Shown piece after piece: positions 7,037 to 19,853 of a DNA stretch of 64,000 nucleotides. This DNA is from an uncultured Lachnospiraceae bacterium (lineage in GTDB: Bacteria; Bacillota; Clostridia; Lachnospirales; Lachnospiraceae). Within the stretch, counting starts at the first letter, position 1. Every line of letters starts with the position of its first letter. The stretch covers positions 16,659 through 80,658 of the forward strand of contig CAMXQE010000015.1 of NCBI GenBank assembly GCA_947246015.1, written 5' to 3'. Both the position numbers and the translations under genes were made by a program. The notes under the pieces were generated by a model, which made no database searches, had not been told where the DNA came from, and saw only the letters and a program-made list of their open reading frames with translations.

Positions 7037-8182
7037 ATGAAAAAATTGGCTATTTTGGGTTCGACGGGGTCAATAGGAACCCAGACGTTGGAAATTGTGA
7101 GACAAAATGAGGACCTGCAGGTGGTTGCCCTGGCTGCAGGCAGCAATGTAGAGCGGATGGAGCAGCAGATTCGCGAGTTCCGGCCATCCGTGGCGGCGAT
7201 GTGGAGCGAGGAAGCATACAGGGATTTAAAAGCACGTGTGGCGGATACGGGAGTACGTGTCTGCTGCGGCATGGAAGGGCTTTTGGAAATCGCCGTGATG
7301 GAAGAGGTGGAAGTATTGGTTACGGCGATTGTGGGAATGATTGGAATAAGGCCTACGATTGCGGCTATCGAAAGCGGCAAGGCGATTGCACTGGCAAATA
7401 AAGAGACTTTGGTGACGGCGGGGCATATTATCATGCCGCTGGCAGCGGAACATAAAGTTCCAATCCTGCCGGTGGACAGTGAGCACAGCGCCATTTTCCA
7501 GTCCATGAACGGGGAAAATAAGCAGCGCATCACAAAGATACTGCTGACGGCATCAGGAGGGCCTTTCAGGGGCAAAACGAAAGCCGAACTTAAAGATATG
7601 AAGGTGGAGGATGCCCTAAAGCATCCAAACTGGGCGATGGGAAGGAAGATTACCATTGATTCCGCTACCATGGTGAATAAAGGGCTGGAGGTCATGGAAG
7701 CGAAATGGCTGTTCGGCGTGGATTTGGACCGGATTGAGGTAGTGGTGCATCCGCAGAGTGTGATTCATTCCATGGTGGAATATGAGGATGGGGCAGTAAT
7801 GGCACAGCTCGGTATGCCGGATATGAAGCTGCCGATTGCTTATGCGCTGTTTTATCCCGACCGCAGGCCGCTTCCCGGAAAAAGGCTGGATTTTTCCGCT
7901 TTGGGCCAGATGACTTTTGAAAAGCCGGATTTAGAGGTGTTTACCGGATTGAGGCTGGCTTTTGAAGCAGCGGGAACGGGCGGCAGTATGCCTACGGTAT
8001 ACAATGCGGCAAACGAGATGGCGGTAAGTCTGTTTTTGGAACGGAAGATAGGATTTTTGCAGATTCCGGAGCTGATAGGAGCCTGCATGGAACAGCATAA
8101 GACGGTGCCGGCTCCGAATGTGGAAGAAATCCTTCTGGCGGAGCAGGAAGCATATGAATTCATAAGGCGGGTGATAAATTGA
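7037..8182 (+). CDS. dxr: 1-deoxy-D-xylulose 5-phosphate reductoisomerase
   Basis: MKKLAILGSTGSIGTQTLEIV, LTASGGPFRG, VHPQSVIHSMVEY. Start set at 7037. Confidence 0.94.
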   Translation: MKKLAILGSTGSIGTQTLEIVRQNEDLQVVALAAGSNVERMEQQIREFRPSVAAMWSEEAYRDLKARVADTGVRVCCGMEGLLEIAVMEEVEVLVTAIVGMIGIRPTIAAIESGKAIALANKETLVTAGHIIMPLAAEHKVPILPVDSEHSAIFQSMNGENKQRITKILLTASGGPFRGKTKAELKDMKVEDALKHPNWAMGRKITIDSATMVNKGLEVMEAKWLFGVDLDRIEVVVHPQSVIHSMVEYEDGAVMAQLGMPDMKLPIAYALFYPDRRPLPGKRLDFSALGQMTFEKPDLEVFTGLRLAFEAAGTGGSMPTVYNAANEMAVSLFLERKIGFLQIPELIGACMEQHKTVPAPNVEEILLAEQEAYEFIRRVIN

Positions 8183-9234
8183 TAATGACGATTGTTTTAT
8201 TTTTGCTGATATTTGGTCTGGTGGTTATATCCCATGAATTCGGGCATTTTCTGCTGGCGAAGAAGAATGGGATACGGGTCGTGGAATTTGCGGTTGGGAT
8301 GGGGCCTACCTTATTCCATTTTAAGAAGGGAGAGACGGTATACAGTCTGAAAGCTTTGCCAATCGGCGGCGCCTGTATGTTTGATGGGGAGGACGGCGTG
8401 CTGTCAAAAGAGGGTGAGCCGGATGAAGGCTCTTTTCTGGCGGCCAGCGTGTGGGCAAGGATTTCCGCGGTAGTGGCCGGGCCGCTGTTTAATTTGATTC
8501 TGGCTTATGCGCTTTCCCTGATTGTCGTTGCATTTACCGGTTCGAACCGTCCGGTTATCCAGACGGTGCTGCCGGACAGCGCAGCGGAGGCGGCAGGACT
8601 GCAGAGCGGTGACCGGATTACGAGAATCAATGGGGAAAGGGTACATCTCGGACAGCAGGTTACGCTGATTTCGTGGCTGAATAAGGGAGAAGACCTTACG
8701 GTGGAGTTTGTGCGTGACGGGGAAAAAGGAAGCGTGACGGTAACGCCTGTCTATGATAGTGCGGCAGGACGTTATTATATGGGATTCATGGGAGTCAGTG
8801 AATATTTTAAGTGTAATGCGCTGGAAGTATTCCAGTACGGCTTTTATGAATTGGAATACTGGGTAGGGAGTACCTTTAAAAGCCTGGGAATGTTATTTAC
8901 CGGTCAGGTGACGAAGGACGATGTGGCAGGACCTGTGGGAATCGCACAGCTGGTGGGGGAAACCTATGAGACGGAAAAGGAATACGGAGCCGGGTATGTA
9001 ATCCTTTCCATGATGAATATCACGATTCTTCTTTCTGTGAATCTGGGGATACTGAATCTGCTGCCGGTTCCCGCGTTGGATGGCGGCCGTCTGGTGTTCT
9101 TATTGATAGAGGCGGTCCGTGGGAAGCCGATTTCCCCGGAAAAGGAAGGAATGGTACACCTGGCAGGGATGGCGGCATTGATGCTGCTGATGGTGTTTGT
9201 TTTGTTTAATGATATTTCGCGGTTGTTTTCCTGA
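8179..9234 (+). CDS. rseP: RIP metalloprotease (site-2 protease)
   Basis: VISHEFGHFLLAKK, PDZ-like domain, NLLPVPALDGGRL. Confidence 0.92.
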   Translation: MIMTIVLFLLIFGLVVISHEFGHFLLAKKNGIRVVEFAVGMGPTLFHFKKGETVYSLKALPIGGACMFDGEDGVLSKEGEPDEGSFLAASVWARISAVVAGPLFNLILAYALSLIVVAFTGSNRPVIQTVLPDSAAEAAGLQSGDRITRINGERVHLGQQVTLISWLNKGEDLTVEFVRDGEKGSVTVTPVYDSAAGRYYMGFMGVSEYFKCNALEVFQYGFYELEYWVGSTFKSLGMLFTGQVTKDDVAGPVGIAQLVGETYETEKEYGAGYVILSMMNITILLSVNLGILNLLPVPALDGGRLVFLLIEAVRGKPISPEKEGMVHLAGMAALMLLMVFVLFNDISRLFS

Positions 9235-9286
9235 GATTGGGAGAGCAGGCTTTTTGCTGTGCTGTATATGTACGCGAATCAAACAG

Positions 9287-9615
9287 GTAACAGTTCAGCC
9301 GTATTGATTGGCTGTGTGGTTGGGATTCCCCAACCGAAAGAGTTTCACGGCGGCGGAAGATGTTTTGTCCCTGTTTCTAATGCACTGATTTGGATGGATT
9401 TTTCTAAGCAGAATGGCATGTGAACCGGCTGGCTGCGGTACGCCCTCAAGCGGCATCCATGCCGCATCTGACCTCATGCTGTGGCATTCTGCTAAGAAAA
9501 ATTTCCATCCAAATCCAAGCAAGAGAAACAGGGACAAAACATCTTCCGTCGCCGTGAAACTCTTTCGGCCGGAGAATCTTCACCACACAGCCAATCAATA
9601 CGGCTGAACTGTTAC
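9287..9615. mobile_element. Foldback miniature inverted-repeat element, IS66-like ends
   Basis: Ends GTAACAGTTCAGCCGTATTGATTGGCTGTGTGGT...ACCACACAGCCAATCAATACGGCTGAACTGTTAC; imperfect arms of ~130 bp; flanked by exact 8-bp direct repeats TCAAACAG (9279-9286 and 9616-9623). No transposase inside. Confidence 0.85.
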
Positions 9616-9817
9616 TCAAACAGCAGTCCGGATAAATAAAAAGCTTGTTTTTTCCCGACGCGTCCTCTATAATGAATTTATATCCAATCTTTTTACGACA
9701 GATTGCAAAGTCTTGTAATCTGACTCCCAAAAAAAGAATCGAAAAATCAAAAAACAAGAAAATTGAAAAAAGCGAGAAAATCGAAAAAAGAAAACAAAAT
9801 ATGGTGCAGGAGGAAAA

Positions 9818-10540
9818 ATGAAGGTTATTTCAGAAGTATATTGGGACAAAGGGGGGCGGACTGTCAATCAGGATTCTGTTTCTCTCCAGCAGGTCAGCAT
9901 TCGTGGAAAGCGGGCCGTGTTTGCATTAGTCTGTGACGGTATCGGCGGTTTGCAGCAGGGGGAGGAGGCCAGCGGGTTTGTGGCGGAGCGGATGACGGAA
10001 TGGTTCTATACGGAAGCCATCCGAATGTTAAGAAAAAAGAAAGGCAGGAAAAAAATAGGACGGGCAGGTCTGCGGGCGCTGTATGGATGTAACGGGGAGA
10101 TGGGGACATATGCGGGGCGGTGTGGTATAAAGATGGGGACTGCGGTAACGATGGTGTTAATCAGCGGAGGACGGTATCTGTCGTGGCATAGCGGGGATAC
10201 CAGGCTTTATCGTGTGAATCCGGGGCGGGGGAGAAAGCGGATGAAACAGCTGACGGCAGACCATACGGCGGACTACCGTACATTAGTTCGCTGTGTCGGG
10301 AGCTTTCCGTGGAAAGAACCGGATGTATCGGGCGGCAGGCTGAAGAGGAACTGTGTTCTGCTCTTGTGTACCGACGGATTCCGCAACCGGGTGCCGGAGG
10401 AAAAAATCGGGGAGGCGCTGCAGCCCTCGTTTCTCATTTCGCAGGAGCAGATGGGGAAAAGGCTGCGGGAACTTTCCGCCTATGGGAAACGGAACGGGGA
10501 GACAGATAATCGTTCGGCTGTGGTAATTAAGTGTTTTTAA
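9818..10540 (+). CDS. PP2C-family protein serine/threonine phosphatase
   Basis: GGRTVNQDSVSLQ, VCDGIGGLQQGEEAS, WHSGDTRLYR, LLCTDGFRN. Confidence 0.85.
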   Translation: MKVISEVYWDKGGRTVNQDSVSLQQVSIRGKRAVFALVCDGIGGLQQGEEASGFVAERMTEWFYTEAIRMLRKKKGRKKIGRAGLRALYGCNGEMGTYAGRCGIKMGTAVTMVLISGGRYLSWHSGDTRLYRVNPGRGRKRMKQLTADHTADYRTLVRCVGSFPWKEPDVSGGRLKRNCVLLLCTDGFRNRVPEEKIGEALQPSFLISQEQMGKRLRELSAYGKRNGETDNRSAVVIKCF

Positions 10541-19216: not shown

Positions 19217-19401
19217 TTGACTGTTATATGAATATCATATGAAACAGCCCAACCCGGAAAATGCTGGAAACCTTGACTTTACATGGTTTGCAGTATTTTT
19301 TTATGCACAGGGCATCCAAAGGAAGTCCGTTATAAAAAAGTGTAAAGCCCGTGCGGATTCAACGGACTTTACACTTTTGACCGATTGTTATGGGTTTTTG
19401 C

Positions 19402-19593: not shown

Positions 19594-19853
19594 ATTATCA
19601 CCTGCTTTCTATGAGTTATCGTTTGATATAGTGTTTTGGTGTTTATATTATAACAAATGGTTGAAGGAGTGTAAAGCTCCCGCTCATTCAATGCGGCCGG
19701 ACTGTTACGGAAAAGGGTCGAAAGTAAAAAAATAAAAAGAAAAAGCTGGTATTTTCCATCCCGATGTGCTATAATCGCATAATGACTGTGATTGTATACT
19801 TTTTTGGTAAAAATCAGCGGATAGATGGTTAGATTAAGGAGGAAACTGTTAAA

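Follow-up and report, generated by a model that had tools for sequence, protein, structure and literature searches.

A foldback element between rseP and a PP2C phosphatase gene is very probably an IS66-type MITE with a TwoAYGGAY-derived passenger

The window analysed here, a 64,000-nucleotide stretch of DNA from an uncultured Lachnospiraceae bacterium, contains a 329-bp foldback unit that is very probably a non-autonomous MITE of the IS66 type (ISBst12-like single-ORF group) with a TwoAYGGAY passenger, inserted between rseP and a PP2C phosphatase gene. Insertion at this site would have duplicated the octamer TCAAACAG, and the family evidence described below suggests that a transposase supplied in trans moved the element by acting on its 14-bp ends. 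The interior would be a passenger, a long-stem hairpin apparently descended from a TwoAYGGAY (RF01731) foldback, whose centre would survive without one of the two AYGGAY hairpins. As an RNA family, TwoAYGGAY has been an orphan since 2010.

The element is an imperfect palindrome of 329 bp, at positions 9287–9615 of the window. Its terminal inverted repeats match perfectly (14/14), with GTAACAGTTCAGCC at 9287–9300 (plus strand) and its complement at 9602–9615 (minus strand), and the foldback arms, at 9287–9418 and 9482–9615 (both plus strand), are complementary at 118 of 134 aligned columns around a 63-nt centre. The octamer TCAAACAG stands outside both ends, at 9279–9286 and 9616–9623, as an 8/8 target duplication. 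Folded as RNA, the element reaches −231 kcal/mol (z = −22.9), and none of 100 shuffled sequences folds equally well. A Pfam search of the open reading frames inside it matched no family, so that it has no transposase gene, and the reading frames on the two strands mirror one another across the palindrome, in agreement with an earlier sequence-only reading of this DNA that had called them mirror products rather than genes. Upstream lies the gene for an RseP-type M50 site-2 protease (8179–9234, plus strand; Pfam PF02163, E = 8e-59) and downstream that for a PP2C phosphatase (9818–10540, plus strand; PF13672, E = 6e-8), which is followed by a Ser/Thr kinase gene. The same reading had described a 329-bp foldback with an exact 8-bp duplication between rseP and PP2C genes, and we confirm its coordinates, ends, arms, flanking octamer and location.

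The 14-bp end belongs to a large family. In the 3.9-Mb host assembly, a search for GTAACAGTTCAGCC gave 40 exact copies and 72 when one mismatch was allowed, against 0 for the reversed control; the 14-mer is present in 13 of 16 genomes of the genus, with up to 145 exact copies in one of them (G003). Among 21 family elements chosen solely by their end pairs and ranging in length from 29 to 466 bp, 18 are flanked by a direct repeat at 7–8/8 identity. The length of this repeat is exactly 8 bp: the ninth flanking base matches in only 10% of cases, and cross-paired flanks, used as a control, share a mean of 2.2 of 8 positions, with none reaching 7. The interiors of these MITEs are unrelated and occur as types of 29, 31, 57, 72, 100, 113, 139, 192/196 and 329 bp. 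The many same-end copies and the family-wide 8-bp rule uphold the original proposal of a foldback MITE with IS66-type ends. Its suggested search for other copies succeeded in part: BLAST of the searched genomes returned no whole copy of the 329-mer and matched the centre alone, and together with the 14-mer counts this leaves the ends and the centre, without the outer arms, as the recurring parts. The host has 72 ends, yet a single copy of the full 329-bp interior.

The smallest family members, four MITEs of just 29–31 bp (L034, L037, L074 and L086, the last at G013:C5 from position 319), have ends that nearly touch and 8-bp duplications that are intact. The first 31 bases of a 196-bp MITE form the same hairpin ending in CTGTTAC, and the 196-bp element itself also ends in CTGTTAC. 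Slippage between these repeats would explain the 31-bp forms, and we therefore read the 29–31-bp MITEs as probably derived from longer ones by internal deletion. For the 31-bp form, the alternative of a mini-element that transposes independently was considered and dropped in favour of deletion within the 196-bp form.

Genes that carry the same end point to the kind of transposase involved. In two congeners (G002, L123; G003, L121) GTAACAGTTCAGCC or GTGACGGTTCAGCC is found 31–45 bp beyond the stop codon of a PF03050 gene, and a PF03050 fragment in a third (G004, L112) has the same end at an equal distance from the domain; the IS66 genes of G002 and G003 are broken, and their proteins are 67% identical over the shared part. 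Related IS66 elements with GTTACAGTTCA-type ends and 8-bp duplications are present in the family. One relative (L118) is 2287 bp long, with perfect GTTACAATTCACGGCCTA ends (GTTACAATTCACGGCC type), an intact ORF and an 8/8 duplication of AACGGTTC; another, from a different genus (L226), is 1984 bp long, with perfect GTTACAGTTCACACCC ends, an 8/8 duplication of GTATTAGA and one in-frame stop in its transposase gene. In ISDge4, an active element of the ISBst12 group, the ends are GTGACTACTCAGCA and GTAACTGCTCAGCA and the 8-bp repeat is CCTCGATG (PMC12898284).

The window element resembles this group in its GTAAC-type 14-bp ends, which are 11/14 identical to one ISDge4 end, and in the DDE_Tnp_IS66 genes of congeners that bear its end; its 8-bp target duplication, many copies and lack of coding capacity are likewise shared with IS66/ISBst12 elements or with MITEs in general. 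It combines the 5′-GTAA or GTTA-type ends with the 8-bp duplication that mark IS66/ISBst12 elements, and differs from them in the broad length range and unrelated interiors of its family. From the sequence of the ends, the length of the duplication and the genes that bear the same end, we infer that an IS66-type transposase probably mobilised the MITE. The IS66-like termini recognised by the sequence-only reading gain support from the IS66 genes that bear this end in three congeners and from the nearly identical ISDge4 end GTAACTGCTCAGCA. Of the parental IS66 that it proposed to look for, the searched genomes yielded these broken genes and no intact IS with exact GTAACAGTTCAGCC at both ends. 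Points against the MITE reading include this missing intact parent, the interior without a second full-length copy, and a PF03050 search of the host assembly that returned no IS66 transposase, in an assembly that is 84% complete and from which the gene may be missing.

The centre of the element resembles a known RNA family. An Rfam search at gathering thresholds gave no match on the element, and RF01731 emerged in an E-value search, on the minus strand at 9384–9518 (32.9 bits, E = 0.0037; gathering score 43). A genus-specific covariance model made from 17 genus copies locates a degenerate TwoAYGGAY unit at 9395–9505 (minus strand) with 74.9 bits and E = 2.3e-15. The stretch 9380–9468 matches the central parts of further long foldbacks, both in the host and in congeners. 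Scanning 84,980 species genomes for an exact pattern yielded 20 stretches, from Lachnospiraceae in every case, and the unit common to them is RF01731 (98.2 and 83.1 bits for copies in G005, 88.3 for a host copy on contig C4). What the window copy has in common with this family is the inner stem TTTTCTTAGCAGAA/TTCTGCTTAGAAAA together with one CANGGATG hairpin. The left side of the stem, TTTTTCTAAGCAGAAT at 9398–9418, is conserved in every core copy that the pattern scan found and is complementary to the right side at 9482–9502; the surviving hairpin, GCGGCATGGATGCCGC with loop CANGGATG, is at 9450–9465 (minus strand). The window copy differs in that the second AYGGAY hairpin has been deleted, its score falls under the gathering threshold, long copy-specific arms extend beyond the Rfam model, and transposon ends surround it. 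Judged by these similarities, the centre derives from RF01731, read on the minus strand, and is a decayed descendant and not a full member; this is new relative to the sequence-only reading.

RF01731 is dispersed through the genus, in 12 of 16 genomes, with 58 copies in G015, 53 in G004 and 28 in G005, and it occurs in 65 of 397 Lachnospiraceae genomes (58 genera; six candidates per genome scored). The G015 copies share a core, and their arms of ∼90 nt vary among copies yet match within each copy: a copy's own arm scores a median of 142, against 26 for the arms of other copies, and is the best match in 16 of 18 cases. Within the genus, TwoAYGGAY units form the centres of foldbacks that are scattered in many copies, each with arms of its own that are self-complementary. 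IS66-type ends on both sides were found for only two of 112 distinct cores, those of the window and of L144 in G013, the latter with three mismatches per end and a 6/8 duplication; in two further foldbacks, L205 (G013) and L004 (G006), the contig breaks after one such end. Against the main reading, all except a handful of the 112 foldbacks are without IS66-type ends, and others bear different outer repeats, such as ACGGAAATCAATTTTG in G015, where target duplications are weakly supported (4 of 21 foldbacks, compared with 1.7% expected by chance). The window element is a MITE carrying a TwoAYGGAY foldback, which is no proof that IS66 moves every TwoAYGGAY unit.

These results suggest that TwoAYGGAY in Lachnospiraceae is a scattered multi-copy hairpin element and not an obvious gene-control RNA. 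Its dispersal in up to 58 copies per genome, together with at least one case of packaging in an IS66-type MITE with a clean target duplication, shifts the question from which gene is regulated to how the units move and how their arms stay matched. A wider proposal, which we consider somewhat less likely than not, is that TwoAYGGAY in Lachnospiraceae is not a conventional regulatory RNA and instead forms the conserved centre of a mobile foldback DNA element found across the family, with arms that are rewritten in each copy and kept self-complementary by DNA-level homogenisation, ANGGA loops that serve recognition by a protein required for spread, and a ride in IS66-type MITE ends in some species, as in the window.

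Several further regularities were seen among the dispersed copies. In nearly all G015 copies (L163–L182), purines make up ∼70% of the 5′ arm on the AYGGAY strand, although the arm sequences have nothing else in common. Adjacent copies 200–1100 bp apart are divergent, minus strand then plus strand, in 8 of 8 distinct pairs, and two core copies each are present at loci L136, L137, L138, L146, L148, L152, L166 and L244. L052 and L060 are apparently one insertion site in IMSAGC_002 and S4_Bin4, with arms that have been altered in parallel on both sides. A crude test for gene-end preference, based on ORF orientation around 73 copies, gave no clear bias.

The matching of arms and stems could in principle reflect selection for an RNA structure, with mobility secondary, or a process acting on the DNA palindrome itself. 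The core stems are Watson–Crick in 3163 of 3343 cells, with strong two-sided changes in all stems, as selection for structure would predict, and tandem G-A pairs have been described on the AYGGAY strand of the motif (PMC4333381). However, an RNA-level constraint should favour G-U pairs on one strand, and G-U is as rare as A-C, with counts of 31 and 29 among the 3343 core-stem cells and of 89 and 96 in the arms, so that neither strand is RNA-like in its wobble. In addition, template switching in quasipalindromes is a known process by which inverted repeats become more perfect without any selection (PMC7202029). As in that process, the arms of each TwoAYGGAY copy agree with one another and the copies diverge; the difference is that here the pattern extends across a dispersed element family and is known from sequences alone. 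We consider it most likely that template switching in the palindrome, and not selection for an RNA fold, holds each copy's arms complementary, and the arm covariation is probably DNA-level palindrome correction. Our confidence in this is moderate because the tRNA control for the wobble count (GU 6, AC 4) is small and not a sharp positive control. RNA-structure selection on the arms and central stems seems to us unlikely. Together with paired flanks, the G-U versus A-C count suggests a countable test for separating structured RNAs from DNA foldbacks in surveys of RNA motifs. The one functional idea for TwoAYGGAY in the searchable literature is that of Gardner and Eldai, who predicted that it binds CsrA (PMC4333381), which would make the minus-strand RNA a regulatory sponge. 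The loop consensus that we derived independently, CANGGAYG with an invariant G-G-A, fits the CsrA/RsmE motif, intact members carry GGA in hairpin loops as CsrB/RsmZ-type sponges do, and CsrA is present in 12 of 16 genus genomes. Even so, we regard this role as very improbable. The window copy retains one of two hairpins, and hence a single site, scores under the Rfam cut-off and has no promoter-like site nearby on either strand in a promoter scan; up to 58 dispersed copies with copy-specific arms are unlike a housekeeping sRNA or the single locus of a CsrB/RsmZ-type sponge. Nor does the distribution of RF01731 track CsrA across the genus, leaving a sponge role unsupported by co-occurrence: CsrA is undetectable in G003 (97% complete, 10 copies), as it is in the host and G013, both with incomplete assemblies, and three genomes have CsrA but no TwoAYGGAY motif.

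The position of the element raises another explanation, that the long hairpin has been domesticated as a terminator or RNase III processing site separating the rseP operon from the PP2C–kinase operon. The very stable fold favours this, as do the intact, partial or remnant TwoAYGGAY units after rseP in G014, G013 and G009 and the ordinary hairpins at the same place in other congeners. Against it, no T-run follows position 9615 and a terminator scan makes no call on the element, so the earlier suggestion that it could terminate transcription is not supported for an intrinsic terminator; a weak terminator-like site at 9223–9248 already precedes the element. In addition, G005, the closest relative by RseP, has no element there, and the perfect target duplication is more in keeping with a recent insertion than with a conserved part. 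We think domestication improbable, to much the same degree as RNA-structure selection. We favour a passive mobile insertion on the grounds that the hairpin lacks a T-run, that CsrA escapes detection in G003 and that three CsrA-bearing genomes are without a copy. Most likely, then, the MITE inserted passively at an intergenic position that tolerates it, and any transcript that reads through from rseP would form a strong hairpin here, which would probably be a processing site.

The region after rseP varies among congeners. A TwoAYGGAY unit or remnant lies directly 3′ of rseP in 4 of 16 (window positions 9234–9818, L205, L209 and L210), with different arms and ends. The unit in G013 has a GTAACAATTCAGCC end and the contig stops inside it, and that in G009 is a remnant; G002, G008, G011 and G012 keep the rseP–PP2C order without a unit. 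This recurrence argues against pure chance of place and may reflect either target preference or old shared ancestry.

Elsewhere in the window, a lone near-copy of the MITE end, GTAACAGTCCGGCC, lies without a partner at 19695–19708 (minus strand), and a hairpin beginning AGTGTAAAGCCC occupies 19336–19378. A 24-nt direct repeat with a spacing of 329 spans both the hairpin and the near-copy.
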